Assembly: GCA_000961595.1 (NCBI GenBank)
Contig: LADO01000017.1
Coordinates: 62,001-126,000 of the forward strand
DNA from: Peptococcaceae bacterium BRH_c4b
GTDB taxonomy: Bacteria; Bacillota; Desulfotomaculia; Desulfotomaculales; Desulfocucumaceae
DNA: 64,000 nt
Direction: 5' to 3'
Each line of letters starts with the position of its first letter. The stretch's first letter is position 1. The notes under the pieces were generated by a model that was not told where the DNA came from, did not search any database, and saw only the letters and a list, made by a program, of their open reading frames with translations. A program made the position numbers and the translations under genes. This document shows positions 17,341 through 32,497 of the stretch, piece after piece.

Positions 17341-17516
17341 TACTTTATTCAAGAACGAAATATTGATGTTATACGTCAATTTATTATATAGTAGTAAAAA
17401 TGGCAGGAGGTGGTACGTTGTAAACTGCCGCCTGTGTTTAGGTGTCTTGGTCATGGCGCGGCGGCAGGGCTGTCAATATAATATTTTACGTTAACTGCTG
17501 CTGGAAGGAGGTCCTA

Positions 17517-19529
17517 ATGCGAGCCAAAAGTTTAATTGTGTTGATGTTGCTATTTACGATGTGTGTAATTGTGCCGGGTGATGAATCCCTGGCCGGTGAA
17601 GCCCTTGTGGAATTTAGCGATACTGCGGGCCACTGGGCTGCCGGTTCAATAACAGAATGCAGAGCCAACGGTCTGATGAGCGGTTATCCGGACAATATAT
17701 TTAAACCCAGTCAGTCGTTGAGCAGGGTCGAGGCTCTGGTGACAGTAAATCGAGCCATGGGATGGTCCAGTCAGGTGAACACAGTTTCCACCTCCGGTAT
17801 TAATTTCCCAACCGATCTCTGGGAATATTTCAGGAACCACGTTGCCCTGGCCGCTAATAAACAATTAATGATTAAAAGCGATATTCCCATGATGAAATTT
17901 AACGACCCGGCTCCCCGCATCGAGGTCGCCCTGTGGCTGGCCAAGGCGCTGGATCTTAAAGGCAACGGCGCCGGATTGAATTTCACCGATTTAAATAAAA
18001 TACCTGCCACATCAAGGGACATGGTGGCCGGGGTGGTGGAGGCCGGCATAATCACCGGTTTGCCGGGCAATCTCTTTGAACCCTCAAAGTCGCTGACCAG
18101 GGCCGAAATGGCTTCCATTCTGGGGCGTCTGCTGAAGGATAAAAAAATAGCGTCCCCGGAAGGCAAGTATCATACAGGCCAACTGACCTCGGTGGACTGG
18201 GTAAACAAAAAAATATCCGTTCAGACTACTTCCGGTTCGGGAACATACCCTCTGGCCGGTTCATATATGGTTTATAAGGACGGCAAAAGAACGACCCTGG
18301 ATGCTATCAGGGCGGGAGAATGCGTAGGAATCACCCTGGACGGCTCCGGTAACTGTATTTTTATTGCCATCCAGGACGGGACCGTGACCACATCGGAGCA
18401 GACGTCCACCACCGGCAGCGTGTCTGTTTCCTACTCCGGTAACAGGGGATATATAGTAAATAAGTACTGGGATAACTTTTCAGTCCGTTTCAGTGATGGA
18501 TCCGTGGAGGAGTTTTACATTAACGGAGTAAAATTTATTGAAAAAGGCTACAGCATTACCTATGGCGCCCTGCAAAAGGGGACCTATGTGGAAGTGGTAA
18601 GATCCGGTTCCAGCATTTCGGAGGTGCGCATTTTAGAAGGTGACCGTAAGGTCTTCGGAGAGGTTGAAAAGATTAGCTCACAGTCAATCGGTATTATCGA
18701 TGAAGACAACAGGGATATTACCTATACGTTGACTGGAGGGGTTTCAATTAAGGATAAAGACAACCGTTCTGCCGACATTGAGGATATAGAGGCGGAAATG
18801 GATGTGGAACTTACCCTCAACGCCAAAGACGAGGTGACTGCCCTGAAATTCAACGAGACAACGGGCGATCTCAAGGGGATTGTTGACTACATCCGTATCA
18901 CCGGAACCAAAAAAATAACCGTCGAAGATAAAGACGGCGATAGTCATACCTATTATCTGGCAAATAGCGTCTCGGTAAGGGAGGACGACAGGACCCGGAA
19001 TCTGGATTACGTCGATGAGGGCATGAACGTTGAATTAACCCTGAACAGCGCCAAGGAAGTTACCCGGATAGAGATTAAGGATCTTACTGTAGTTGAAGGC
19101 GAAGTTACCTATATAAGCACTTCCGGAACGAAAAGGATTAAGATAGAAAAGAGTAATAACAAGGAAGTAACCTACTATCTGGCCGACGGCGTAACAGTGA
19201 AAGACGGCGGCACGAGTAAAAGCCTTAGTTATATCGACACGGGGTTGGATGTGAAATTATATCTTAATGACGATGATAAAGTTATCAGGATTGAAATAAT
19301 CGGCTCATCTTCCACGGTGCGGGGAGAAGTGACCAGCATCCGCACCTCGGGCACCAAAAGAATCTGGATTAAATTGAGCAGCGGCAGTGAAAAGAATTAC
19401 TACCTGTCGGATGACGTGAAGGTTACGGAAGGCTCCGCCACCAAAAACCTGAGCTATATAGACAAAGACATGGAAGTCAAGCTTACCCTGGATGATGATG
19501 ACGAGGTAACCAGGATTGATATTTTGTAA
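17517..19529 (+). CDS. S-layer homology protein with tandem C-terminal beta repeats
   Basis: A 670-residue cell-surface protein. A signal peptide (KSLIVLMLLFTMCVIVPG) is followed by three SLH units (about 30-215: DTAGHWAAGSI..., then two more ending LTRAEMASILGRLL) that anchor to cell wall polymer. The remaining 450 residues are about six repeats of roughly 72 residues. The last four are clearest, each holding a GEVxxIxxSGTKxIxI strand, a YYLxDxVxV strand and a DxGMxVxLxLNxxxEVTRIxI strand. The ATG at 17517 follows AAGGAGGT at 5 nt; an in-frame extension to 17442 is not needed. A second SLH gene follows 49 bp later, so the two form a likely operon. Role: S-layer or surface scaffold. Confidence 0.9.
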   Translation: MRAKSLIVLMLLFTMCVIVPGDESLAGEALVEFSDTAGHWAAGSITECRANGLMSGYPDNIFKPSQSLSRVEALVTVNRAMGWSSQVNTVSTSGINFPTDLWEYFRNHVALAANKQLMIKSDIPMMKFNDPAPRIEVALWLAKALDLKGNGAGLNFTDLNKIPATSRDMVAGVVEAGIITGLPGNLFEPSKSLTRAEMASILGRLLKDKKIASPEGKYHTGQLTSVDWVNKKISVQTTSGSGTYPLAGSYMVYKDGKRTTLDAIRAGECVGITLDGSGNCIFIAIQDGTVTTSEQTSTTGSVSVSYSGNRGYIVNKYWDNFSVRFSDGSVEEFYINGVKFIEKGYSITYGALQKGTYVEVVRSGSSISEVRILEGDRKVFGEVEKISSQSIGIIDEDNRDITYTLTGGVSIKDKDNRSADIEDIEAEMDVELTLNAKDEVTALKFNETTGDLKGIVDYIRITGTKKITVEDKDGDSHTYYLANSVSVREDDRTRNLDYVDEGMNVELTLNSAKEVTRIEIKDLTVVEGEVTYISTSGTKRIKIEKSNNKEVTYYLADGVTVKDGGTSKSLSYIDTGLDVKLYLNDDDKVIRIEIIGSSSTVRGEVTSIRTSGTKRIWIKLSSGSEKNYYLSDDVKVTEGSATKNLSYIDKDMEVKLTLDDDDEVTRIDIL

Positions 19530-19578: not shown

Positions 19579-22023
19579 ATGTTCAGAGCAAGGTTATTTA
19601 TTTTTTGTATTGCGGCAGTACTGCTGCTATGCCCACCGGCCTGGGGCCGGCAGCAGCCACCACCTGTATTTAAGGATATAGCAGGTTCTTTCGCCGAAGA
19701 TGATATCAACGCTCTGGCTGCCCTGTGGATATTAAAAGGCTCCAGCCCGGAACAGTTTGACCCGCAACGGGAGATAACCCGGGGTGATTTCACTGTGCTG
19801 CTGGCCGGAGTATTGGGGATAATGCCCTATCACCCGGAAAAGCCCTCCTTTTTCGATGTGCCCCCGGATTCCCCCGTTTTTGGCTATGTCGAAGCCCTGG
19901 CCGAATTGGGTATACTTGCGGGCAGCGGCGATAACAGGCTTGAAGCCGGAAAGTTCATCAGCCGCCAGGATGCGGCGGTGATGGTATACAAGGCCCTGGG
20001 GGGCTTTAGCGCCAGCAGAGAATTAAAATATAGGGACGGAAGGATTATTTCCCCCTATGCGGTGTCTGGCGTGGCTTTTGTAACCGGCAAGGGTTGGATG
20101 AGGGGCAGCGATGGTAATTTTCACCCGCTGAAGAGTATGACCCGGGCCGAGGCAGCGGTGCTGGCCAGGCAACTATACGATGCGAGAAAATGGCAGGCCA
20201 TGACCTCAATACGGGATGTCTCCCGTCGCCGGGCGGGGGTTGAGACCGGCGCCGAATTGCCGCTGCAGACTGACCCGGCATGGGGCAAACTTGGGTTTAC
20301 TCCCATATACGGTATCGATAATCCCGCCCTGGGCAACCTGGGGTACGACGGTACCTTTACTGCCGGCCAGCGCCCGGGAGATGGTATAATCACCGTTAAC
20401 TCGGGTTACAACAGCTATAATGTAGAAGTTTCCGTGTCCGGAAATATCGGTAAAGAGGATGCAGATAAGCCTTCCGCTGAAAAATCTTCAGCCGGTGTCA
20501 ACTCCTCCGGCGGCTACGGCCCCCCTGTGGAAAGGGAATTGAGTTTTACTTATAGTATGGGGCAATATGCGTCGGATGCGGCTTTTCGGGATATGGAAAA
20601 TAAAAAATATTCCGGTCCGGTGGACGGGCTTACCTCCGGCGGCGAAATCTGGACGGGGTTCTTGCGTCAGCAGGGCAGGAATATTACTGCGGATCTGGGG
20701 CATCTGGAAACTGTATCGAAAATATCGCTGGAATTCAAACAGGATACCGGCGCCGGCATACGGCTGCCGGAATACATGGAATGTGCGGTTTCTGTGGACG
20801 GAGAAATATGGCGGTACGCAGGCCGGGTAAATCACGGAATTTTGCCTTCGGATAGTTCCGTCCAGAGCAAAAGCCTGCAGTTGACTATTCCCCCCGTCAT
20901 CGCAAGATATGTAAAGATTAGCTTTCCGGTGGATGTTTTTGTATTTGCCAGACATTTATCCATCAAAGGGGGGCTTCCGGCAGATAAGCCCGCAGTGTTG
21001 CCACCGGACGAAAGGGGTGTCGGGAAATCCCCGCAGTATCTGTTCATCCCCGATATGAAAGATGTATTACTGGTCTTTTCGGGGGCTAATGGAAGGATTG
21101 GAACCTGGACCTCCTGGGACTTTGAGCCTCTGGTTGGATATATGAACGGAAGAGGGGCCATCGGGGGAAGAATGTTTGACACCATGCTTTTTCTACCGTT
21201 CCCAGGGATTACCGGAAATAAGGGGGAATGGGTGGCCTATCTGGATAACCTTTTTGTCCCGGGAGAACAGCTTAGTGCGCTAAATGATGCGGCTGCTTCA
21301 GTGAATGCAGCTCTGCACACACAGATGAAGGAAAAAGTTATACTCTCCCTGCCGTACCCGGACCCTCAGCAGAAGGATTTCGGGGCGCTGGAGGAAGAGG
21401 GCCGCTCTCTGTCCTTTATAGGTAATAATGCGAGCGGGGAGCAGGCGCCTGGCGACAGGTTTCAGGCCGTGCAGTGGTATTACAATCAACTGACCGCCCG
21501 CTGGAAAGCTGCTGAATATAAAAACCTGGAGCTATCAGGTATCTACTGGTATAAAGAAACTATGGACGCAAGGATTTCCGGCGAAAAGGATCTGTTGCAA
21601 AACGTTGCTCGCATGGTCAGGCAAGACGGGCTGAAATTCTTTTGGATTCCCTATTTCGGGGGGCGCGGCTATGAGGACTGGCGGTCTTACGGGTTCAGCC
21701 ATGTTATATTGCAGCCAAACTATTACGCTACAGACAACCCCCCGGAGGACAGGCTGGCCAACGCAGTGGAACAGGCGGGGAAATACAGTCTGGGTATTGA
21801 GCTGGAATGTGACGATAAAATAACTTACAGCCGATATTACTACGATTTGTTCTACCGGCAGTTAAATATCGGCCATGAGTTGGGGCTGGATGGTGACGTG
21901 ACCAATGCTTATTATGCTGGGGCGAAAACATTTTTACAGGTCCGTTCCAGCAACGTCCCCCAGATCCGGGGTATCTATGATGATCTTTTTAGATGGATTA
22001 ATGGAACCTATAAGCCTGAATAA
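19579..22023 (+). CDS. S-layer homology protein with DUF4855 domain
   Basis: An 814-residue exported protein. A signal peptide (RLFIFCIAAVLLLCPPAWG) is followed by three SLH units (about 30-215; SRQDAAVMVYKAL, SMTRAEAAVLARQL). A linker leads to a region resembling a carbohydrate-binding/discoidin-type domain (about 330-465, with TADLGHLETVSKISLEF and ARYVKISFPVDV). A C-terminal DUF4855-like domain (480-814) holds WDFEPLVGYM, LSGIYWYKETM, FFWIPYFGGRGY and the acidic LGIELECDDK; this family is thought to be a glycoside-hydrolase-like fold. Likely wall- or polysaccharide-directed. ATG follows GGAGAAGG at 5-6 nt. The C-terminal fold assignment is from memory of motifs. Confidence 0.85.
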   Translation: MFRARLFIFCIAAVLLLCPPAWGRQQPPPVFKDIAGSFAEDDINALAALWILKGSSPEQFDPQREITRGDFTVLLAGVLGIMPYHPEKPSFFDVPPDSPVFGYVEALAELGILAGSGDNRLEAGKFISRQDAAVMVYKALGGFSASRELKYRDGRIISPYAVSGVAFVTGKGWMRGSDGNFHPLKSMTRAEAAVLARQLYDARKWQAMTSIRDVSRRRAGVETGAELPLQTDPAWGKLGFTPIYGIDNPALGNLGYDGTFTAGQRPGDGIITVNSGYNSYNVEVSVSGNIGKEDADKPSAEKSSAGVNSSGGYGPPVERELSFTYSMGQYASDAAFRDMENKKYSGPVDGLTSGGEIWTGFLRQQGRNITADLGHLETVSKISLEFKQDTGAGIRLPEYMECAVSVDGEIWRYAGRVNHGILPSDSSVQSKSLQLTIPPVIARYVKISFPVDVFVFARHLSIKGGLPADKPAVLPPDERGVGKSPQYLFIPDMKDVLLVFSGANGRIGTWTSWDFEPLVGYMNGRGAIGGRMFDTMLFLPFPGITGNKGEWVAYLDNLFVPGEQLSALNDAAASVNAALHTQMKEKVILSLPYPDPQQKDFGALEEEGRSLSFIGNNASGEQAPGDRFQAVQWYYNQLTARWKAAEYKNLELSGIYWYKETMDARISGEKDLLQNVARMVRQDGLKFFWIPYFGGRGYEDWRSYGFSHVILQPNYYATDNPPEDRLANAVEQAGKYSLGIELECDDKITYSRYYYDLFYRQLNIGHELGLDGDVTNAYYAGAKTFLQVRSSNVPQIRGIYDDLFRWINGTYKPE

Positions 22024-22029
22024 TAGAAA

Positions 22030-22065
22030 ATCTCCCGGGCCGCACTTTCCGGGAGATGTTTTTTT
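22030..22065 (+). terminator. Terminator of the SLH operon
   Basis: ATCTCCCGG/CCGGGAGAT stem with a 10-nt loop, followed by GTTTTTTTAA, 6 nt after the SLH gene stop. Confidence 0.9.
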
Positions 22066-22181
22066 AACGCCGTGGTTATTAGTGCCAGTCTCAGATGTCA
22101 ATTCCAGCATAACTGTTTGCCGATTAGTATAATGATGCAACAAAACAGCCTGGAATAGTTATCGGGATTAACCCGGGTACT

Positions 22182-22571
22182 TTAGAAATTTCCTCCGTTC
22201 CTTCGTATTATTTCCTCCGCCCGGTTCATTTTATCGTCGGAACCAACTACCGTAAGCAGGAAGGCCTTGCCTCCGGCCTGTCCGTAGTCGATGTTCCCGT
22301 AGCCGCTGACGGAAGGATCCGCGGCCATCAATATCCTGGCATCCTGACTGGAGACACCCTGGCTGTTGGAGAAGAGGGTGGGGCCGGTTTCCGTTCTGGC
22401 ATTGTTTATAGGGTTGTTGTAATGAGCGTCTGAGGTGGCCCCGTATCGGGAGACTCTATCAACCTGGACATTTTTTAATCCCGTATTTTTTAATTCCTTT
22501 TCCGCTGCCTGGGCCTTATTGCTGGAGGGAAAATACGCAAGAATTGATCGTTCACCGGGAGATAATTTCAA
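22182..22571 (-). CDS. Hypothetical protein, possibly YflT/general-stress-like
   Basis: A 129-residue soluble protein. Residues 10-45 (ILAYFPSSNKAQAAEKELK then VQVDRVSRYG) resemble the ferredoxin-like start of small proteins that sense or bind across a beta-alpha-beta unit. A Gly/Asn/Ser-rich linker follows (about 50-95). The last 30 residues (AFLLTVVGSDDKMNRAEEII) form a second beta-alpha unit. This layout resembles Firmicute general-stress-type proteins, but I cannot name the family with confidence. TTG start at 22571, 8 nt after AAGGAGGG. Monocistronic. Confidence 0.72.
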   Translation of the reverse strand: MKLSPGERSILAYFPSSNKAQAAEKELKNTGLKNVQVDRVSRYGATSDAHYNNPINNARTETGPTLFSNSQGVSSQDARILMAADPSVSGYGNIDYGQAGGKAFLLTVVGSDDKMNRAEEIIRRNGGNF

Positions 22572-22651
22572 ACCTGAAACCCTCCTTAATAAATTTTGAT
22601 TTTATTATGGCCGGGATAAGCAGGTTTTATTGAAAAAGGTAATTTAACCTT

Positions 22652-22912
22652 TTAATTGGCGTCATCGTCCTGAAGGAAATTGCTTTCCAGGGTGTGTTCG
22701 TTTACGAACCACCATCTTTTATCGTTAGCCAGTATAAACAGTCCATGGATGCCACTGCGGAAAGAGTATGTTCTACCCTCCGTAAAAATAGGCTCCTCTT
22801 TTTTTTCTTTTAAATGCAATAGCTCATAAAAAGTATCAAGTCTGGATTTTTTAATTACAAAAACCGTGTTTATACATTTTATCTTTTTATAATTATCCGG
22901 TGACTTGTCCAT
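22652..22912 (-). CDS. Hypothetical 86-residue protein
   Basis: Begins MDKSPDNYKKIKCINTVFVI and is rich in Lys, Glu and aromatic residues; the end is acidic (FLQDDDAN). No domain is recognised. An upstream in-frame ATG exists at 22933, but the ATG at 22912 lies 8 nt after GAGGAG and is the better start. It precedes the 22571 gene on the same strand by 80 bp, so the two could be co-transcribed. Confidence 0.6.
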   Translation of the reverse strand: MDKSPDNYKKIKCINTVFVIKKSRLDTFYELLHLKEKKEEPIFTEGRTYSFRSGIHGLFILANDKRWWFVNEHTLESNFLQDDDAN

Positions 22913-23119
22913 TGTTAAGCACTCCTCATTCATATTTTACAAATTAAAAATAGAACAGTCCAGTTTGAAATTGCAAAGACTGATATATTTTTACATTTCT
23001 TTCCCACCACAAGCCCAACCGGAACGGTTCACCAGTATCTGCCGTCGTATCTTTTGTTCCGCTTGTCCCCCATTACAAAGATATTTCCGTTGGATACTCT
23101 GAAGGGTTTACAAAAGCTG

Positions 23120-23143
23120 AAAACCGCCCTAAACGGCGGTTTT
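23120..23143. terminator. Orphan terminator-like hairpin
   Basis: AAAACCGCC/GGCGGTTTT stem around CTAAAC, with A- and T-rich flanks. No intact gene ends here on either strand. It may have served the decayed DHH gene just to the right on the minus strand. Confidence 0.6.
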
Positions 23144-23275
23144 GTAATACTTTATGATTAGTATGTCGGTGTCCTTGCTCGCGTAGCGAGAGTGAAGGGT
23201 GGGGATGAAAGGTAGGTATGTCTTGCAGGGAATTCTTGTTCTGTCTTTGATTGTCTGGTAATAATATAGTTAGTT

Positions 23276-23480
23276 CTAATCCTTTAACTTTAGGATTAAA
23301 TCACTAAGTACTTGTTCGGCTTTTTCGTCAGGAACCTGGCATGTCCCTACATTATTATGTCCGCCGCCTCCATAATAATCATAAATCACGCGGGCACAGG
23401 ACGGTGCAGGAGTTGAGCTGCCTTCACCGTTCAAACCTACATTTTACTGTACTGCCAATTTTAACTCTCCGAAGCCAAGG
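23276..23480 (-). pseudogene. C-terminal remnant of a DHH-family phosphoesterase
   Basis: Reading the minus strand toward a TAG at 23278-23276 gives ARVIYDYYGGGGHNNVGTCQ followed by VPDEKAEQVLSDLILKLKD. The GGGGH motif followed by a small residue pair is the hallmark of the DHHA1 substrate-binding domain of DHH phosphoesterases (nanoRNase/exopolyphosphatase type). Upstream the frame is interrupted by a TAA at 23446-23444 and the rest of the gene is gone, replaced by the DUF1540 terminator region. Only about 60 residues of a normal 310-plus remain, so it is a dead fragment. Confidence 0.55.
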
Positions 23481-23486
23481 AAACAG

Positions 23487-23532
23487 TCATAGAATAAAAG
23501 GCCCGGCAAAAGCCGGGCCTTTTATTCTATGA
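23487..23532. terminator. Perfect 21-bp terminator hairpin at the DUF1540 stop
   Basis: TCATAGAATAAAAGGCCCGGC pairs perfectly with its complement across an AAAA loop. The stop codon of the DUF1540 gene (23529-23527) lies within the stem. On the minus strand the GC-rich top is followed by TTTTATTCTATGA. Confidence 0.85.
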
Positions 23533-23775
23533 CATCTTTTGAACACCATCGGCTCTGATGTCCCCTGAACCTTTAGAAACGTATGTTTTACAAGCTGTTG
23601 CCGTGCAGTTACCTGCCTTTACAGGAGTCAGCTGCTTTGCCATAGTGCAGTCCACATTATCCGGCTGCTTTACTGCAAAATCGTCGGTAGATACCAGGAT
23701 TTCGTTGGCATTGCATCTGTTGCCCTGGGCGTAGTAATGGCAGTCGCTGACAATACAATGGATATGTTGACTCAA
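23527..23775 (-). CDS. DUF1540 domain protein
   Basis: An 82-residue cysteine-rich protein. The N-terminal half fits DUF1540 (HCIVSDCHYYAQGNRCNANEI, with further C in VDCTMAK), and a second Cys set follows (NCTATACKTY). Spacing suggests one or two metal sites. The family is common in sporulating Firmicutes; its function is unknown. TTG start 6 nt after AAGGAGATG. A shorter paralogue lies at 63376-63531. Confidence 0.88.
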   Translation of the reverse strand: MSQHIHCIVSDCHYYAQGNRCNANEILVSTDDFAVKQPDNVDCTMAKQLTPVKAGNCTATACKTYVSKGSGDIRADGVQKMS

Positions 23776-23980
23776 AAATTCATCTCCTTTGCGCTATATT
23801 GGTAAACCTAAATTAGTTTTTCCGGAGGCATAAATTTTTATGAAAGTGATTTCGTTATTCAACATTCTGCTGACCATATGGAAATCCTTGCTATAGGCTA
23901 TGTAACCTATTTACTTGTTTCAACGAAGGATTACTGGTAAAATATTGCTGAGCACAACTTTGCATACAAAGGAGAAAGAT

Positions 23981-24511
23981 ATGAATATTATTCGCATAGG
24001 TGACAAGGTTATAAATACGGATCTGATCCACCGGGTGGTGGATCAGATACTTCTACTGCGGCAAGAGGGGCACTCTCAGCAGGAAGTGGCTGATCAGGTA
24101 GGGATCGACCGGACCCTTATATCACGACTGGAGTGCATTGGGGAAATTCGTAAGGGGCCGCTGGTGGCCCTAATAGGTTTTCCGCTGGCCAATGCCCAGG
24201 AATTAATCGAGGTAGCCCGGGCCGGCGGGGTGGATTTCATACTGCTCATGAGCGAGCAGGAGCGCTTGCGCTACGTGGAAGAAATGAGTGGGGCCGATCT
24301 GATCAATCACTTTATGGCCCTTGTTTCTCAGGTTAAGGGTTACGACACCGTTATCTTTATAGGTTCGGATATGCGCATTAAACTGGTGGAAGATATACTG
24401 GGGTCTAAGGTAATCAGTTGGGAAATCGGAATTTCTCCCATCAAGGAGGACCGGTGGATTAACCCCGAACAATTGAAGCAACTGATCCTTCAACTTAAGA
24501 AGGCCTGCTGA
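23981..24511 (+). CDS. HTH transcriptional regulator
   Basis: A 176-residue protein. Residues 17-55 form a helix-turn-helix (QILLLRQEGHSQQEVADQVG then IDRTLISRLE), like the XRE/sigma-54 class. The remaining 120 residues (VALIGFPLANAQELIEVA, DFILLMSEQERLRYVEEM, VIFIGSDMRIKLVEDI) form an alpha/beta domain with repeated beta-alpha units that could bind a small molecule. The frame opens earlier at 23915, but the ATG at 23981 lies 6 nt after AAAGGAGA. It is followed 126 bp later by the aminotransferase-reductase fusion on the same strand and is a natural candidate for its regulator. Confidence 0.8.
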   Translation: MNIIRIGDKVINTDLIHRVVDQILLLRQEGHSQQEVADQVGIDRTLISRLECIGEIRKGPLVALIGFPLANAQELIEVARAGGVDFILLMSEQERLRYVEEMSGADLINHFMALVSQVKGYDTVIFIGSDMRIKLVEDILGSKVISWEIGISPIKEDRWINPEQLKQLILQLKKAC

Positions 24512-24637
24512 TTAAGTCCCCCCTCCTTGCTTCACTCCGAATCTACTTTACTGCTGCCTGAATGTGAACAATAATTTCCTGTCTATACTATAGTAGAGCA
24601 ATAAATAGAAGATCGATGAATAAAGAGGTATCCATGA

Positions 24638-27277
24638 ATGGATAATTTTACCCGGTACGTCAATCCTCATCTGGGCGAATTGTTGAATCAAGTGCGCATG
24701 GACAAAGCATACGTACGGGGGGAAGGCCATTACCTGTTTGATTCCGACGGCAACCGCTATCTTGATTTTATTGCTGCCTACGGGGCACTTCCCTTTGGGT
24801 ACAACCCTCCGGAAATATGGCAGGTACTGGACGAGGTTCGAGCCGGCGCGGAGCCAAGTTTTGTCCAGCCGTCCGCCCTGGAGGCAGCCGGAGAGCTGGC
24901 CCGTCGCTTGATTGAGCTGGCCCCGAAGGGTCTGGAGTATGTTACTTTTACCAACAGCGGGGCTGAGGCGGTGGAGGCTGCCATCAAGATGGCCCGTTCA
25001 GCCACCGGAAGGATAGGCATTCTAAGCACATACAACAGTTTTCATGGCAAAACCCTCGGCGCCCTTTCGGCCACAGGTAATAATTACTACCAGCTTCCCT
25101 TCGGCGCGCCGGTGGGAGGTTTTAAAACAATATCATATGATGACTTGGAGGCTCTAGAGGAAGAACTGGAGAACAACGGTTCTCTATACGCCGCTTTCAT
25201 ACTGGAACCTATCCAGGGTGAAGGTGGTATTGTAGTGCCGCATACGGGTTACCTTACACGGGCCATGGAATTGTGCCGGCGTCACGGAGTGCTGTTTATT
25301 CTTGATGAAATCCAGACAGGGCTTGGCCGTACGGGCAGGCTTTGGGCCTGTGAGGAAGAAAACCTGTGCCCCGACATGTTGCTGCTGGCAAAGGCCCTGG
25401 GAGGGGGAATTTATCCCATTGGGGCCTGCCTCAGCACCTCTGCTGCCTACACTAGAGATTTCGGCGAGCGGCACTCTTCAACTTTTGCCGCAAACACACT
25501 GGGCTGCCGGATCGGCCTGAAGGTGTTGGACATCTTAACCAGGAACAACCGGGAAATCATCCGGAATGTGCAAAACAATGGCCGGTGCCTGCGGGAGGCC
25601 ATTGAACTCCTGCAGCAGCGTTTCCCCATGGTTCTGAAAAGTGTACGCGGCCGTGGATACATGCTGGGCTTGGAAATTGAAATGTCCAGATCCGACTTTC
25701 CCAGTTGTTTTTTAAGTGTCCTTTCCGAACAGGACAACCTCACCCCGCTTATCTCCAGTTACCTGTTAAACGAGAATGGTTTACGGGTGGCGCCGACATT
25801 AAACGGCAACAAGGTCATCCGGGTGGAGCCTGCGCTTACCGTAACCTGGGAAGAATGCCTGTTGGCGGTTAAATCTCTGGAAAGGGTTCTGGCTGTGCTG
25901 GATGCCGGCAATACCCTGGAGATCATGCGTCCGGTCCTCGACTTAAGCGTTCAGGCCGGCAAACAGGAACCCCGGGTGGAAGTATACCCATGGGAACAGT
26001 ATCAGCCTTCCCCGGACCCGAAGGAAGGACGTTTTGCATTTCTTATACACCCGTTGGATTTATACAACTACTACCAGTTCGACGACAGTCTCAAATCTAT
26101 TCCCAACGACAAGCTTCAGAAGTTGGCCGATTTAGGCAGCCGGATACTGGACCCCTTCGTTATAGGCCGGACAACAGTGGTATCAAAAGCCGGTTACAGC
26201 GCCTACGGCGAGTTTATCACTCTGCCCCACACCGCCAGGGAAATGATAGAGCTTAAAACTGAAGTGATTATCAAGGAACTGGAAAAGGCGCTGGAGTTAG
26301 CTATAAAGCGGGGAGCCCGTCTGGTGGGCCTGGGGGCCTACACATCAGTGGTATCCCGAAGCGGAACACTGCTTCAGGGAAAATTCCTTCCGCTTACCAC
26401 CGGGAACAGTTACACGGTAGTGGCGGGAGTGGAAGCGGTTAAACTGGCCGCCCGGCGGTTTTCTATGGATCTTGGTGAAAATTCCGCCGCCATTATCGGC
26501 GCTACCGGGTCCATCGGACGAACCCTGGCTATACTTCTGTCGGAAGAAATGCAGCGTATAATACTTGTGGGAAATTTCCGCCACCCTCAGGCAAGCTCGC
26601 GTCGCCTCCGCCGGGTTGGCGCCGATATATGCCTGCACCTGGCCAAACAAGCCCAACTTGGCTGGAACCCGGCACCCTACAGCATGGGCACACGCCTTTT
26701 GAATATGGATCTTCCGCCTCTTGACACCCCGGTGGAGGGGTGGTTGCCGGTGGCCGGGGAACTGGAGAAGGAAGGACTGCTCGTAATCACCACCGACCTT
26801 GCCCAGGCGCTTCCCCAGGCCCGGGTGGTAATTACCGCCACCAGCAGCGTTGATGATCTGATCAATCCCATGTGGGTGGCGCAGGGGGCAATTATCTGCG
26901 ACATCTCCAAGCCATCCAACGTTCGCCCCTCCCTGCGGCAAATAAGGCCGGACGTTCTTGTGATTGACGGAGGGGTGGTGGCGGTGCCCGGCCGCCCGTC
27001 CCTTGGTTGGGATTTCGGCTTTGAGCAGGGTCTGGCCTACGCCTGCATGGCTGAAACAATGATGCTGGCGCTGGAGCACCACTACACCGACATGAGTCTG
27101 GGCGCCAACCTGTCCCTTGACAACATGATTTACCTCAGACAACTGTCCATTAAGCACGGTTTTGAGCTTGCGCAACTTAGGAGTTTCGATCTTCCCCTAA
27201 GCGAGGAAGAGTGGCGGCAGGTGGCAAAAGCCCGTTCACAAAAAGACCCCCTCCTGAAATACGGATCTTTAATATAA
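24638..27277 (+). CDS. Fusion of class III aminotransferase and acyl-thioester-reductase-like enzyme
   Basis: An 879-residue two-enzyme protein. Residues 1-430 are a class III PLP aminotransferase, ornithine/acetylornithine type. The motifs are TNSGAEAVEAAIKMAR near 110, FHGKTLGALSATG, the cofactor Asp in FILDEIQTGLGRTG near 225, and the PLP lysine K252 in LLLAKALGGG. Residues 460-879 resemble cyanobacterial acyl-ACP reductase: FAFLIHPLD near 464, LVGLGAYTSVVSRSG near 563, LTTGNSYTVVAGVEA near 588, a Rossmann glycine motif IIGATGSIGRTLA near 617, and VIDGGVVAVPG near 775. A Cys in GAIICDISKPSNV near 753 is a candidate nucleophile. Such a pair could reduce an acyl thioester to an aldehyde and aminate it to a primary amine; that is inference. 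ATG follows AGAGGT. Confidence 0.85.
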   Translation: MDNFTRYVNPHLGELLNQVRMDKAYVRGEGHYLFDSDGNRYLDFIAAYGALPFGYNPPEIWQVLDEVRAGAEPSFVQPSALEAAGELARRLIELAPKGLEYVTFTNSGAEAVEAAIKMARSATGRIGILSTYNSFHGKTLGALSATGNNYYQLPFGAPVGGFKTISYDDLEALEEELENNGSLYAAFILEPIQGEGGIVVPHTGYLTRAMELCRRHGVLFILDEIQTGLGRTGRLWACEEENLCPDMLLLAKALGGGIYPIGACLSTSAAYTRDFGERHSSTFAANTLGCRIGLKVLDILTRNNREIIRNVQNNGRCLREAIELLQQRFPMVLKSVRGRGYMLGLEIEMSRSDFPSCFLSVLSEQDNLTPLISSYLLNENGLRVAPTLNGNKVIRVEPALTVTWEECLLAVKSLERVLAVLDAGNTLEIMRPVLDLSVQAGKQEPRVEVYPWEQYQPSPDPKEGRFAFLIHPLDLYNYYQFDDSLKSIPNDKLQKLADLGSRILDPFVIGRTTVVSKAGYSAYGEFITLPHTAREMIELKTEVIIKELEKALELAIKRGARLVGLGAYTSVVSRSGTLLQGKFLPLTTGNSYTVVAGVEAVKLAARRFSMDLGENSAAIIGATGSIGRTLAILLSEEMQRIILVGNFRHPQASSRRLRRVGADICLHLAKQAQLGWNPAPYSMGTRLLNMDLPPLDTPVEGWLPVAGELEKEGLLVITTDLAQALPQARVVITATSSVDDLINPMWVAQGAIICDISKPSNVRPSLRQIRPDVLVIDGGVVAVPGRPSLGWDFGFEQGLAYACMAETMMLALEHHYTDMSLGANLSLDNMIYLRQLSIKHGFELAQLRSFDLPLSEEEWRQVAKARSQKDPLLKYGSLI

Positions 27278-27297
27278 ATAAAATGACAAATTGATAC

Positions 27298-27326
27298 GAA
27301 ACCGCCCTTCTGGGCGGTTTCTTTTT
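27298..27326 (+). terminator. Terminator of the aminotransferase-reductase gene
   Basis: GAAACCGCCC/GGGCGGTTTC stem with a TTCT loop and a TTTTTCC tail. Confidence 0.92.
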
Positions 27327-27399
27327 CCAAATCAGGAAACCCTGCGAATTATTGGGCAGGGTTTTTAAACAATTACATGTTTATCTCATGCTATGTAAA

Positions 27400-27428
27400 A
27401 AAGGTGGGGCCTGGTTAGCCCCACCCTT
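27400..27428. terminator. Second terminator-like hairpin
   Basis: AAAGGTGGGGC/GCCCCACCCTTT stem around CTGGTTA, flanked by A-run and TTTAAAACC. It lies in a long stretch without a clear gene; an unrecognised transcript may end here. Confidence 0.6.
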
Positions 27429-28101
27429 TAAAACCTTTTCCGGTCAAATGCTATCCTGTTTTTTTGCGGGTCCTGGGTTTGCGGTAATCTGTCCGGGAAC
27501 CTGCCGGCGCAAAACCGGAGAAGGTGAAATTTTTGATATTTTTCATAAGGCCAGAGTATGCTCACGACGGGATATTTGTTACCGTCTATTGGCTAAAGGC
27601 AGTATAATGACAGTCTTATTTCCAAAGAAGGGAAAGAACTTATATCGACCAATCCAGCAATCGCCCTGGCCTGATATTGAAGCCATCGTTGAATATGATG
27701 TTATCTGTGAAGCGTTCAGCCTTCTGGACGCCGTGAATATATTTTGGAGCCAAAACGAAATTCTTCTCCGTATTCTTTTGAAATTTATTCTGTGCATTTT
27801 GATCAATAGTTTGTATTAGCTGGACCAACAGTAATGATTTGACCATTATTAATCACCCCTGTATTTTAATACGGAGATGATTTTAATAATGTGAGGGTAT
27901 TATTTGGTTTTCTTGAAATATTTCATTAGAAGAGTTTGGGTTATTTAACTCATCGAGGAGGTGTGAGCGGCGGGAGGTCCAAGGGGCGTTTGATTAAAGA
28001 AAGATAGGCCTGTGCTGGAGGGTGAGATTTGAGACAGGTTATGATGACAAATAATAGAGGGGCTAACTGAAGATGGACTCCCACTTATATAGCTCGTCAG
28101 G
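27429..28101. other. Long stretch with no convincing gene
   Basis: About 670 bp. The plus-strand 155-codon frame across 27352-27819 crosses the hairpin at 27400 and has Cys/Leu-rich, low-quality sequence, so it is not a gene. The one candidate is the minus-strand ORF 27640-27846. Around 27955-27995 a purine-rich GAGGAGGTGTGAGCGGCGGG is seen, with no start codon that leads to a real frame. Confidence 0.5.
27640..27846 (-). CDS. Doubtful small ORF of 68 residues
   Basis: ATG at 27846 lies 7 nt after AGGGGTG. The product begins MVKSLLLVQLIQTIDQNAQN and contains no recognised motif. The start signal is decent, but there is no homology I recognise, so it is only a candidate. Confidence 0.3.
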   Translation of the reverse strand: MVKSLLLVQLIQTIDQNAQNKFQKNTEKNFVLAPKYIHGVQKAERFTDNIIFNDGFNIRPGRLLDWSI

Positions 28102-28293
28102 TTATGTGTTTTTATTGTTTTTGTCCATTAATATTTCTTCAAGCCTTCTAACCCTTTGTTTTAGGTTATTGAATTGAATGAAAATGAAAACGAGAAAAAT
28201 TATCGGTAGGAAAGTAAGGCAAAGAAGGATAATCAAGTTAAATATTTGTGCCACAAGCGTGGCGTTAAGATTGAGGCTGTTAACAACGTCCAT
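28102..28293 (-). CDS. Small single-span membrane protein
   Basis: A 63-residue protein. A long hydrophobic segment (FNLIILLCLTFLPIIFLVFI) spans the membrane; the C-terminus is basic and coiled-coil-like (LKQRVRRLEEILMDKNNK). The layout resembles small DUF-type phage/sporulation membrane proteins, but the family is not recognised. ATG at 28293 has AAAGGGG about 11 nt upstream; a TTG at 28314 overlapping that site is unlikely. Confidence 0.6.
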   Translation of the reverse strand: MDVVNSLNLNATLVAQIFNLIILLCLTFLPIIFLVFIFIQFNNLKQRVRRLEEILMDKNNKNT

Positions 28294-28577
28294 TTTAAAC
28301 GCAACCCCTTTCAATGAGTTTCTCCCAAGGAGCTTTACTGTTATGAGGCATATCCTCTGAGATCGTTGAATCGGGGAATCGTCCCTGACTCATAGAAGTG
28401 GGATTGACGTTCCGTGAAGCTTATATAAAAATTTACATAATTATAATACAAATTCTAACAGATTAACAAACATGTTTGCACTTATTCAATTGCCAATTCA
28501 ATTGAGTTCAATTTGATACATTTTGGAGAGTCCCAGGTTTCACCTTATTCCGGGATAAACATATGGCAAAATAAAAA
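28294..28577. other. Intergenic, no gene seen
   Basis: About 280 AT-rich bases between the small membrane protein and the cotJ operon terminator. A GAATCGTCCCTGACTCAT fragment (28376-28393) is a decayed piece of the GGGGAC/GTCCCC repeat family. Nothing else stands out. Confidence 0.5.
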
Positions 28578-28607
28578 ATAAAAGCCCAGGTCTTTACGCC
28601 TTGGGCT
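28578..28607 (-). terminator. Terminator of the cotJ operon
   Basis: On the minus strand AGCCCAAGG pairs with CCTGGGCT (one bulge) around GCGTAAAGA, followed by TTTTATTTTTTATTTT. It lies 10 nt after the cotJC stop. Confidence 0.8.
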
Positions 28608-28616
28608 GATTATATT

Positions 28617-29189
28617 TTAAAAAACCTTTTTTGTCTCCTGAAATTCCTGGACGTTATCCAGCGCCTCGCCAAACCGCTGGAAGTGTACCACTTCCCTTTC
28701 TCTGAGAAACTTCAGGGTGTCTTTGATGCCGGGGTCGTCGGTCAGGCGAATTAAATGCTCGTAGGTGGTCCGCGCCTTTTGCTCTGCAGCCATGTCTTCG
28801 TGCAGGTCTGTTACGGGATCTCCGGTGGCCTGGACATAGGCCGCAGTCCAGGGCACGCCGTCCGGATTAACTGGAAAAACGGCATTGTCGTGCATGGTGT
28901 AGTAGCCGCCAAGCCCGGCCTCTTTCATTACCTCAGGCGGGACGCCGTGGGTAAGTTTGTATATCATGGTGGCGATTATTTCCCAGTGGGCCAGCTCTTC
29001 GGTGCCTATATCGGTTAAAAGGCCTTTGGTCATATTGGTTGGCATTGAGTACCTCTGGGTAAGGTAGCGGATACCGGCTGACAGTTCCGAGTCCGGCCCG
29101 CCGTACTGGGCCATCAGAAATTTAGCCATGCGCACATCGGATCCTTCCACTCTTACGGGGTATTCCAGTTTCTTTTCATAAACCCACAT
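28617..29189 (-). CDS. cotJC: Spore coat protein CotJC, manganese-catalase family
   Basis: A 190-residue ferritin-like four-helix-bundle protein. The Glu/His ligands for two Mn ions are visible: E in DSELSAGIRYL (near 36), EELAHWEIIA (near 68-72), E in HEDMAAEQKART (near 135-141) and H in REVVHFQRFGEAL (near 172). Known CotJC sits in the inner coat of the spore. The start ATG follows a GAAAGGAAGC ribosome site at about 9 nt. Last gene of cotJABC; the cotJB stop lies 21 nt upstream of its start. Expression is expected in the mother cell (sigma E in Bacillus); no promoter was identified here. Confidence 0.95.
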   Translation of the reverse strand: MWVYEKKLEYPVRVEGSDVRMAKFLMAQYGGPDSELSAGIRYLTQRYSMPTNMTKGLLTDIGTEELAHWEIIATMIYKLTHGVPPEVMKEAGLGGYYTMHDNAVFPVNPDGVPWTAAYVQATGDPVTDLHEDMAAEQKARTTYEHLIRLTDDPGIKDTLKFLREREVVHFQRFGEALDNVQEFQETKKVF

Positions 29190-29210
29190 GCTTAAAAGCT
29201 TCCTTTCTAT

Positions 29211-29462
29211 CTAGATTTCCCATGGCCATGGGCTTTCTGTCCATCTCCAGTGGCCTGCTGTATCATACTGTCCGTCTGGATAGAGGGGTCCGTATTGTCT
29301 TTGGTATTCCTCAGTAAGCTTTCTGTATCTGGCGCTTGCCTCCTGAAAGTCCCTGAAGGCTGCGCTATTATCCGGGTGCGTGTCGAGGAAAAGGTTTAAT
29401 TCAATAGCTGTGAAGCCTATCTCCATGATCTGTTTCAGCAGAGCCATTTGAGTTTTGTTCAC
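29211..29462 (-). CDS. cotJB: Spore coat protein CotJB
   Basis: An 83-residue protein with the family core LLKQIMEIGFTAIELNLFLD, then DTHPDNSAAF, and a C-terminal aromatic segment with YGPLYPDGQ and WRWTESPWPWEI. The frame is open further upstream, but the GTG at 29462 lies 7 nt after GGAGGTG, and the family begins at this point. Located between cotJA and cotJC in the usual order. Confidence 0.93.
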   Translation of the reverse strand: MNKTQMALLKQIMEIGFTAIELNLFLDTHPDNSAAFRDFQEASARYRKLTEEYQRQYGPLYPDGQYDTAGHWRWTESPWPWEI

Positions 29463-29487
29463 TTTATACCACCTCCGTAAAATCAAG

Positions 29488-29733
29488 CTAATACGGGTAC
29501 GGTCTGTACAGTTCCGGGAAAATGGTCCCCTTTTCCAGTGCTTCGGCGGGGGGGTAGGTAACGCCGTATACCTGCCACGGGACATAGGCCTTGGCCAGTT
29601 CCCTGCCGTAAACAGGATTATAATCCTGGGTGTTTTCCGGCAGGCTTGCTGCCGGTTCTTCTACCGGCTGGGGAGTCTGTGGCATCCCGGGAGGGTTTTT
29701 ATAGCCAAAGGGATAACGCATTGTGGGAAACAT
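29488..29733 (-). CDS. cotJA: Spore coat-associated protein CotJA
   Basis: An 81-residue proline- and tyrosine-rich protein. The family segment LAKAYVPWQVYG is followed by YPPAEALEKGTIFPELYRPY near the C-terminus. ATG follows AAGGCGGTG at 7 nt. First gene of the cotJABC unit; CotJA and CotJC interact in Bacillus coats. Confidence 0.92.
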   Translation of the reverse strand: MFPTMRYPFGYKNPPGMPQTPQPVEEPAASLPENTQDYNPVYGRELAKAYVPWQVYGVTYPPAEALEKGTIFPELYRPYPY

Positions 29734-29959
29734 TTAATGCACCGCCTTGAAAAAGAGTAATATATATTTATTTTATTTATTATAGTCAGTTAATACCATT
29801 AATGTTACAGTTTAGTAGATTGCACGTTTTGGCCGGCTAAATAAATTGCCCGCCCAAAACGTGAGGAGAAGGAGTTAAAAACAATATCTAGAATATTATG
29901 GTTTGTTGCAGTTGGCGAATTTACGTTCAAAATGCAGGGTATTAAAGGGGGAGTTACCG

Positions 29960-32497
29960 TTGTATGCCTTCAGGACTATTTCCGTGAAACCGAAGCTGCC
30001 CGAGGAGATCAAGAGGCTTAAAGAACTGGCCTATAACTTCTGGTTTAGTTGGAATACCAATGCCAGGGCGCTTTTCAGAAAGATAAATGAAACACTGTGG
30101 GATGATGTAAACCACAACCCGGTAAAATTTTTGCTGCACGTAAACGAAGAAGATCTTGAAGATATTGCCCAGAACGATGAATACATAAAAGATTACAACA
30201 GGGTTTTTGCGGATTTTGACAGATATATGAACAGGAAAACGTGGTTTGAGAAAATTTACCCGCAGTATAATACTGCTCCCGTAGCCTATTTTTCAGCCGA
30301 ATTCGGACTTCACGAATCTCACCCAATTTACTCGGGAGGCCTCGGGCTATTGGCGGGGGATCATCTCAAATCGGCCAGCGACCTGGGGATACCCCTGGTA
30401 GGGGTGGGACTTCTGTACAGGCATGGGTATTTCAACCAGGCCATAAACAGGGATGGGAGTCAGGTGGCGCAATATCTTCATCACACTTTTTCTGAACGGC
30501 CCATTATTCCTGTTGCGGATGGGAAAGAAAAGCTGATTTCAGTAGAGATGTCCGGCCGGACGGTTTATGCCAAGGTATGGAAATGCCTGGTGGGCCGCAT
30601 TACTCTATATATGCTGGATTCCAATATACCCCAGAACAGCCTGGAAGATCGCAAAATCACTGATCAGTTGTACGGCGGCGACAGGGAGACCCGCATATCC
30701 CAGGAGATACTGCTGGGTATAGGGGGGGTCAAAGCCCTCCGTTTAGAGGGCATCAATCCCGCAGCCTGGCATATTAATGAGGGCCATGCAGCCTTTCTGA
30801 TACTGGAAAGGATCCGGGAATTGGTGGCCGGCGGCCTGTCTTTCGAAACAGCCAGGGAAATTGTCAGTTCCAACACTCTTTTTACCACCCATACTCCAGT
30901 GCCGGCGGGACATGATTTGTTCAGCGCGGAACAGATTGAGCGCTACCTGGGAAATTTGTATGAGCAGCTGAATATTGAACGGGAAGATTTGCTGGAACTG
31001 GGCTGGGACGAGGAGCGGAAAGAATTTAACATGACTCTGCTGGCTTTGAGAATTTCGAGTTACTGCAACGGGGTCAGCAAACTGCACGGGGAAGTTACCA
31101 AGGAAATGTTCAGTTACCTGTATCCAGGGGTGCCGGTGGAGGAAGTGCCGGTACATTATATAACCAACGGTGTGCACACTGGTTCCTGGCTGGCCCAGGA
31201 AATAAAGGATCTCTACTATATATATCTGGGCGAAGACTGGCATGAAAATATCACCGACCGCAATGTCTGGAAAAAGGTGCGCGAAATACCGGATAATCTA
31301 TTATGGGCCGTGCACCAGTCACTGAAAGAGAAAATGATATCCTTTGCTAGGAAAAATTTAAAGAAACAGCGTCTGCGCAACCAGGAGCCCACCAACCGGG
31401 TGAAGGAAGTGGAACAGTTTCTGCGGCCTAATGTGTTTACCATTGGTTTTGCCCGCAGATTTGCTACCTACAAGAGGGCGGGGCTGTTGTTTCTAGACAG
31501 GGAGAGATTGGAAAAACTGATCAATAATCCCCATATGCCGGTGCAGATTGTTTTTGCCGGCAAGGCCCATCCCGCCGATACGGCCGGACAGGAACTGATC
31601 AGTCAGGTCTACAGTCTTTCCAACGAAGAACCCTTCAAGGGTAAAATTGTATTCCTGGAAAACTATGACATCCACATGGCCCGGATACTAGTGCAGGGGG
31701 TTGACATCTGGCTGAACACCCCCCGTCGTCCCATGGAGGCCAGCGGCACCAGCGGCCAGAAGGCTGCGGCCAATGGAGTGCTGAATTTGAGTATACTTGA
31801 CGGCTGGTGGCCGGAGGGCTACAACGGGGAAAACGGCTTTGCCATCGGTGAAAAGAAGCATTATGACAGTGAGGATATGCAGGACAGGGATGACTGCTAT
31901 TCTCTTTACGCAACGCTGGAGGAAAAGGTGCTGCCTGCTTATTACGGACTTGACGGGGCTTTTCCCAGGGAATGGCTCAGAATGATGAAAAATTCCATTG
32001 TTACCATCTCCCCTGTTTTCAGTACGGAGAGGATGGTTCAGGAATATAGCGAACGTTTTTATATTCCTTCCATAAAACGGTGGAGTTACTTTACTGAGGA
32101 TAACTATTCCGCAGCCAGGCGATTTAAGGATTTCAAGCAGGCTATCACTGAAAACTGGCAACACGTTTCGATAAACAGGGTAGAAACAAACGCTAACAGG
32201 GAGATTAACGTCGGAAGCCTGCTGAAAATAACCGCCTATGTGCATTTGGGGCCACTTTGCCCGGATGATGTCGACCTGGAGGTGGTCTACGGCAATATAA
32301 CTGACCGTGGGCTGACCAACATTAGCATTTCTCCCATGACTTACGAGGACTCGGGGGAGGATGGGGCTCACCGCTATCTGGGGCAGTTAATTTTACCTCA
32401 GGGAACATACGGCTATACGGTCAGGGTTATACCGGGGCACCAGGACTTTGTGCGCAAATTTGAGCTGCCCCTGATAATCTGGTCCGGTAATTTCTAA
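29960..32497 (+). CDS. glgP: Alpha-glucan phosphorylase (GT35)
   Basis: Releases glucose-1-phosphate from glycogen or maltodextrin using PLP. 845 residues. The N-terminal DUF3417-like region (1-110, RTISVKPKLPEEIKRLKEL, WFSWNTNARALF) marks the bacterial/archaeal alpha-glucan phosphorylase type. The catalytic body has YFSAEFGLHESHPIYSGGLG near 112, HINEGHAAF near 275, and the PLP lysine in SGTSGQKAAANG near 600. The frame is open from 29903, but the TTG at 29960 lies 6 nt after GGGGGAG and is the best start. The gene is followed immediately by a GGCCGTT-ended repeat. It stands alone, with no glycogen synthesis genes nearby. Confidence 0.94.
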   Translation: MYAFRTISVKPKLPEEIKRLKELAYNFWFSWNTNARALFRKINETLWDDVNHNPVKFLLHVNEEDLEDIAQNDEYIKDYNRVFADFDRYMNRKTWFEKIYPQYNTAPVAYFSAEFGLHESHPIYSGGLGLLAGDHLKSASDLGIPLVGVGLLYRHGYFNQAINRDGSQVAQYLHHTFSERPIIPVADGKEKLISVEMSGRTVYAKVWKCLVGRITLYMLDSNIPQNSLEDRKITDQLYGGDRETRISQEILLGIGGVKALRLEGINPAAWHINEGHAAFLILERIRELVAGGLSFETAREIVSSNTLFTTHTPVPAGHDLFSAEQIERYLGNLYEQLNIEREDLLELGWDEERKEFNMTLLALRISSYCNGVSKLHGEVTKEMFSYLYPGVPVEEVPVHYITNGVHTGSWLAQEIKDLYYIYLGEDWHENITDRNVWKKVREIPDNLLWAVHQSLKEKMISFARKNLKKQRLRNQEPTNRVKEVEQFLRPNVFTIGFARRFATYKRAGLLFLDRERLEKLINNPHMPVQIVFAGKAHPADTAGQELISQVYSLSNEEPFKGKIVFLENYDIHMARILVQGVDIWLNTPRRPMEASGTSGQKAAANGVLNLSILDGWWPEGYNGENGFAIGEKKHYDSEDMQDRDDCYSLYATLEEKVLPAYYGLDGAFPREWLRMMKNSIVTISPVFSTERMVQEYSERFYIPSIKRWSYFTEDNYSAARRFKDFKQAITENWQHVSINRVETNANREINVGSLLKITAYVHLGPLCPDDVDLEVVYGNITDRGLTNISISPMTYEDSGEDGAHRYLGQLILPQGTYGYTVRVIPGHQDFVRKFELPLIIWSGNF

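Follow-up and report, generated by a model that had tools for sequence, protein, structure and literature searches.

Organization of the locus

The window (the whole stretch of DNA that was analysed, 64,000 nucleotides) carries a gene in which an aminotransferase (TA) and a thioester reductase (TR) are joined in one chain of 879 residues. The frame opens with ATG, contains zero internal stops and has the length given in the original prediction; since full-length orthologues are present in many species (42-81% identity), the fusion is not attributable to chance. A gene for a helix-turn-helix (HTH) protein lies 126 bases upstream. This gene probably starts at the ATG at 23981, with AAAGGAG in front of it, and not at the TTG at 23915. 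Downstream, a terminator-like stem-loop suggests that the transcription unit ends after the fusion gene. No Rfam element was found at gathering threshold within 22000-30000.

Table 1. Features of the TA-TR locus, in window positions
Feature	Position	Strand	Evidence or comment
HTH regulator gene (putative), 176 aa, paired with the fusion	23981..24511	+	HTH Pfam matches just under cut-off; upstream conservation
TA-TR fusion gene, 879 aa	24638..27277	+	Intact ORF; RBS-like AAAGAGG before ATG; full-length orthologues; AF2 model of whole protein (mean pLDDT 88.9, pTM 0.81)
Class III PLP aminotransferase (TA) domain, residues 1-422	24638..25903	+	Pfam PF00202 (E 4.5e-87); VIA-align to 4ppm; Lys252 invariant
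Lys252 codon	25391-25393	+	In TA domain
AAR-type thioester reductase (TR) domain, residues 461-879	26018..27274	+	Matches to 4ppm N-domain and 6jzq; VIA-align to 6jzq; Cys803
GATGSIG, residues 621-627	26498-26518	+	Nucleotide motif of TR domain
Cys803 codon	27044-27046	+	In TR domain
Intrinsic-terminator-like stem-loop directly 3' of fusion gene	27298..27328	+	10-pair stem, 7 GC, then TTTTTCC

Several other features were observed in the surrounding DNA. Two S-layer-homology proteins are encoded at 17442-19529 and 19579-22023, the latter carrying a DUF4855 domain and weakly matching F5/8 type C. A perfect 20-pair palindrome at 23486-23533, terminator-like on both strands, sits beside a short minus-strand ORF (23527-23775). 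Beyond the fusion, the minus strand at 28617-29733 holds the gene of a 190-aa Mn-catalase-like protein, which covers profile positions 1-198 of 284, and upstream of it two short ORFs on the same strand; we take this region to resemble the spore-coat cotJ operon. An alpha-glucan phosphorylase with a DUF3417 domain is encoded at 29903-32497.

The two halves of the protein

In a profile search, residues 23-418 matched Pfam Aminotran_3 over profile positions 11-403 of 403. The Schiff-base lysine, Lys252, lies within LAKALGGG and is invariant across an alignment of 37 fusion homologues. The TA half of the whole-protein AF2 model aligned with the TA domain of PigE (4ppm) at Z 46.7 and rmsd 1.8 over 410 residues (VIA-align). 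The N-terminal half is, as had been predicted, a complete class III PLP aminotransferase with its catalytic lysine at position 252.

The C-terminal half (residues 461-879) matched the N-terminal domain of PigE (4ppm, E 2.9e-26), a cyanobacterial acyl-ACP reductase (AAR; 6jzq, E 1.7e-15) and the AAR family TIGR04058 (E 1.3e-22). The last match, at 80.6 bits, is under the curated equivalog cut-off of 449.7 bits; the TR domain is related to that family in fold and mechanism yet belongs to a different one. The AAR-like domain and its Rossmann motif are therefore where the original prediction had looked for them, except that the motif, GATGSIG, occupies residues 621-627 and not the neighbourhood of 617. 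Cys803 aligns with Cys294 of the Synechococcus enzyme (SeAAR), which is the acyl-accepting cysteine (PMC9594044). All three glycines of the motif (621, 624 and 627), N590, T593 and C803 are invariant in the 37 homologues. Because a PDB search with the whole model gave TA matches only, among the matches listed, we modelled the TR domain alone (pLDDT 90.7). In VIA-align this model scored Z 33.2 against AAR 6jzq (rmsd 3.4, 325 aligned) and at most ~14 against amino-acid and 2-hydroxyacid dehydrogenases. The predicted structure yields no evidence of a tunnel joining the two domains. Together the two halves supply what defines a TamH-type fusion, an N-terminal class III PLP transaminase and a C-terminal AAR-like reductase with GxxGxxG and a catalytic cysteine.

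Comparison with characterized enzymes

A fusion with the same domain order is known from the tambjamine YP1 pathway of Pseudoalteromonas tunicata, where fatty amine formation by PtTamH, protein WP_009837236.1, was shown in 2022 (PMC9594044). PtTamH forms C7-C14 amines from aldehydes and, together with PtTamA, converts C12 acid to C12 amine via PtTamA-bound acyl-ACP, with NADH and L-Glu; C12-CoA is not accepted (PMC9594044). By published description PtTamH, like the window protein, has an N-terminal TA and a C-terminal AAR-type TR in one chain, with GxxGxxG and the catalytic Cys. Unlike the window protein, it is 941 aa long and is encoded in a 19-gene pyrrole antibiotic cluster with a partner ligase-ACP protein, TamA, whereas the window gene is not part of a cluster, adjoins no ligase, ACP or pyrrole genes, and is accompanied by a dedicated HTH gene. 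Given that there is no tambjamine-like cluster, we regard the window protein not as a functional TamH orthologue but as an enzyme of the same type. Conversion of acyl-ACP to amine with NADH and L-Glu has been shown for PtTamH only, and is predicted by analogy for the window protein.

PigE of the prodigiosin pathway is homologous in both domains, but its order is the reverse, TR first. Its substrate is a 3-acetyloctanoyl thioester. PigE is reported to carry out thioester reduction first and then to transaminate the aldehyde (PMC8341465). The PigE family NF053554 was the best NCBIfam match of the window protein, at 517.6 bits against a cut-off of 850 bits, and no PigE-family member over this cut-off was found among 369 gammaproteobacterial genomes. 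Cyanobacterial AAR (6jzq/6jzy; TIGR04058) shares the fold, the nucleotide-binding motif and the catalytic cysteine of the TR domain at ~20-23% identity in structural alignments; unlike the fusion, it is a free protein that works with aldehyde deformylating oxygenase. Putrescine aminotransferase YgjG (4uox) has the TA fold and PLP site, lacks a reductase domain and acts on putrescine. An AAR-like fold is also found in the TAD domains of the carmabin pathway (9e4s to 9e56; Z ~32 by Foldseek and VIA-align, ~17% identity), whose residue numbers, 1926-2311, indicate a large parent protein, and which presumably come from a PKS/NRPS-type pathway.

Relatives and descent of the fusion

In maximum-likelihood trees, one for each half, the window protein grouped with other Bacillota fusions in both, and its two domains share descent with those of other TA-TR fusions. 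The lone aminotransferases and lone reductases of the same order formed groups separate from the fusion halves. We thus rejected the idea that the lone aminotransferase (~45% identical) and lone reductase of the order had fused locally. Support for most deep forks of these trees is weak. Long branches and incomplete sequences make the positions of PigE, SeAAR, L158 and L160 unreliable; PigE and AAR were entered as partial sequences.

The relatives also show what company the fusion keeps. In Chloroflexota, one protein of 1538 aa (L045:3874-8490) consists of a fatty-acyl-AMP ligase-type domain, a phosphopantetheine-binding ACP, TA and TR in a single chain, and over TA-TR it shares 54% identity with the window protein; from its sequence it is predicted to convert a fatty acid to an amine on its own. 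In L071, TA-TR is followed by an AMP ligase. Pseudomonas and Chromobacterium relatives lie beside genes for an acyl-AMP ligase, a fatty acid desaturase and a MacB/FtsX-type permease, and a Photobacterium relative lies between ketosynthase and ketoreductase genes, in a locus that also encodes a LolA-like protein and an MMPL-type transporter. All of these contexts fit a chain being released from its carrier as an amine. One gammaproteobacterial candidate of 941 aa (L144:52-2874, genome G325) was set aside, as it is not a TA-TR fusion; it joins an N-terminal FAD_binding_4 domain to a class III aminotransferase.

Distribution and the paired HTH gene

Of 113 genomes of the order, 19 have a full-length fusion, the window's own among them; of 398 sampled from the whole phylum, 37 do (~9%). 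The cultured Sporotomaculum syntrophicum is one of the carriers, while a genome of the same genus as the window's, G029, is without the fusion. Elsewhere in the Bacillota the fusion is flanked not by biosynthetic clusters but mostly by ordinary genes, for instance mutS, mutL, miaA and hfq in L161, prolyl-tRNA synthetase (as read from sequence) in L020, and acpS and yjeF near L168. No ligase or ACP gene recurred beside the fusion among the typed neighbours there. Within the order, the 13 loci compared had no common neighbour besides the HTH gene.

In each of the 19 fusion-bearing genomes of the order (the 18 others being L087 to L104) this HTH gene stands ahead of the fusion, and the window's own genome has no second copy of it. 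The window's HTH protein has a relative in L076 that clears the HTH_3 cut-off, and in 10 loci (L076 to L085) a lone AAR-type reductase has a related HTH gene upstream. Lone AAR-type reductases in L007, L075 and L086 are without one; L074, listed with these, is a fusion gene cut short and not a lone reductase. The HTH gene that had been proposed as a regulator is thus real, and the strictness of the gene order strengthens the proposal; these genomic patterns support a possible role for its product in controlling the fusion.

The lone reductases were noted in two settings. The window's own genome encodes one of 360 aa (L007:9409-10491, on G000:C34) between dusB and greA-lysS, with no adjoining HTH gene. 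Elsewhere in Clostridia this gene occurs with the HTH family and often with a protein of ~300 aa just upstream (L084:5110-6024) that has no Pfam or NCBIfam match. This could be a regulated aldehyde-forming system.

Proposed reaction and its direction

We favor the interpretation that the 879-aa protein is a TamH-type amine synthase, bifunctional and reductive, and consider this probable. An acyl chain, most likely from acyl-ACP, would be passed from its phosphopantetheine thioester to Cys803 of the C-terminal domain, and hydride from NAD(P)H would release it as a free aldehyde. The aldehyde would then reach the N-terminal aminotransferase, where Lys252 and an amino acid donor such as L-glutamate would yield a primary amine; a medium- or long-chain alkylamine is the most likely product. 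The course from thioester through aldehyde to primary amine is that of the original prediction, and it gains from two facts: PtTamH, with the same domain order, carries it out (PMC9594044), and the motifs for both half-reactions are present. Acyl-CoA, one of the donors then envisaged, has become less likely than acyl-ACP because of the failure of PtTamH with C12-CoA (PMC9594044). By this analogy the mechanism is well supported, yet it has already been described and is not new.

As to the source of the acyl chain, no acyl-AMP ligase or ACP gene adjoins the fusion in the Bacillota loci examined, that of the window included, and the donor is consequently not given by gene context. In the genome itself, ACP is encoded in an ordinary FAS operon, two other genes are ACP-like and ten matches are of AMP-ligase type, so that activated chains are available, and an ordinary FAS ACP may serve as donor. 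Aldehyde formation in this organism would not be confined to the fusion, given the lone AAR-type reductase noted above. Because the substrate chain differs among PigE/TamH-type enzymes, homology is no guide to chain length.

Alternatively, the substrate could be a short or omega-functionalised thioester and the product a diamine or an amino acid-like compound and not a fatty amine, a possibility raised by the similarity of the TA half to YgjG (4uox, E 1.7e-73) and ornithine-type enzymes and by the branched keto-acyl chain that PigE handles. We think this unlikely, however, as the TR half is of the AAR kind and AAR acts on fatty acyl-ACPs, and as relatives are associated with fatty-acyl-AMP-ligase-like domains and desaturases.

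With regard to direction, the main rival is that the enzyme runs oxidatively in amine breakdown: the TA half would transfer the amino group of an amine to pyruvate or 2-oxoglutarate, and the TR half would use NAD+ to oxidise the aldehyde to an acyl thioester destined for beta-oxidation. We regard this as rather improbable. Relatives with fused ligase and ACP, like PtTamH itself, run biosynthetically, and neither an amine transporter gene nor a beta-oxidation gene is consistently adjacent. The points in its favor are that: (i) transaminases are reversible; (ii) names such as Sporotomaculum suggest that the hosts are anaerobes that oxidise organic acids or live syntrophically; (iii) L011 and L017 share a gene family downstream of the fusion (its member in L011 is typed as an aldehyde dehydrogenase), as in some amine degradation operons; and (iv) the Bacillota loci lack an acyl-activating partner gene. 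We nevertheless infer a biosynthetic, ACP-dependent direction, on the grounds that the Chloroflexota relatives place fatty-acyl-AMP ligase, ACP, TA and TR in one chain.

A place in amino-acid metabolism, with an aminotransferase of ArgD/ornithine type joined to a dehydrogenase for shikimate or amino acids, as automatic annotation would have it, is extremely improbable and is already contradicted by fold and motif: the Pfam Shikimate_DH match at 716-769, just over cut-off, covers a Rossmann fragment only (profile 64-124 of 138 of a Rossmann model, 25.6 bits), the TR domain has the AAR catalytic Cys and an AAR fold and sequence (Z 33 vs ~14 or less), and the TA half falls outside the ArgD group in the tree. 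The original prediction had staked itself on the C-terminal half not matching an amino-acid dehydrogenase family, and it withstood this comparison.

Possible amine synthesis outside antibiotic clusters

Less expected than the mechanism is the occurrence of the enzyme outside antibiotic clusters in many anaerobic Bacillota, with a putative regulator gene of its own in this order. The literature searched contained nothing relevant on such enzymes in Bacillota or on fatty amines in Desulfotomaculum. We tentatively raise the possibility, itself doubtful, that some anaerobic Bacillota use a TamH-type enzyme to make long-chain primary amines from FAS acyl-ACP for general physiology (membrane, envelope or stress), and that in the window's order the enzyme is switched by a dedicated HTH family that is also paired with lone AAR-type reductases. 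If this were true, lipid metabolism in this group would include the aldehyde-forming reduction of acyl-ACP as a branch under regulation. An enzyme type characterized from an antibiotic pathway is, in any event, intact beside housekeeping genes in roughly one in eleven of the phylum genomes sampled, which predicts fatty amines or amine lipids as yet undescribed in anaerobic Bacillota. These fusions may also provide many diverse one-protein candidate biocatalysts for converting acids to amines, and nature supplies single-chain versions that include the acid-activating ligase and the carrier.
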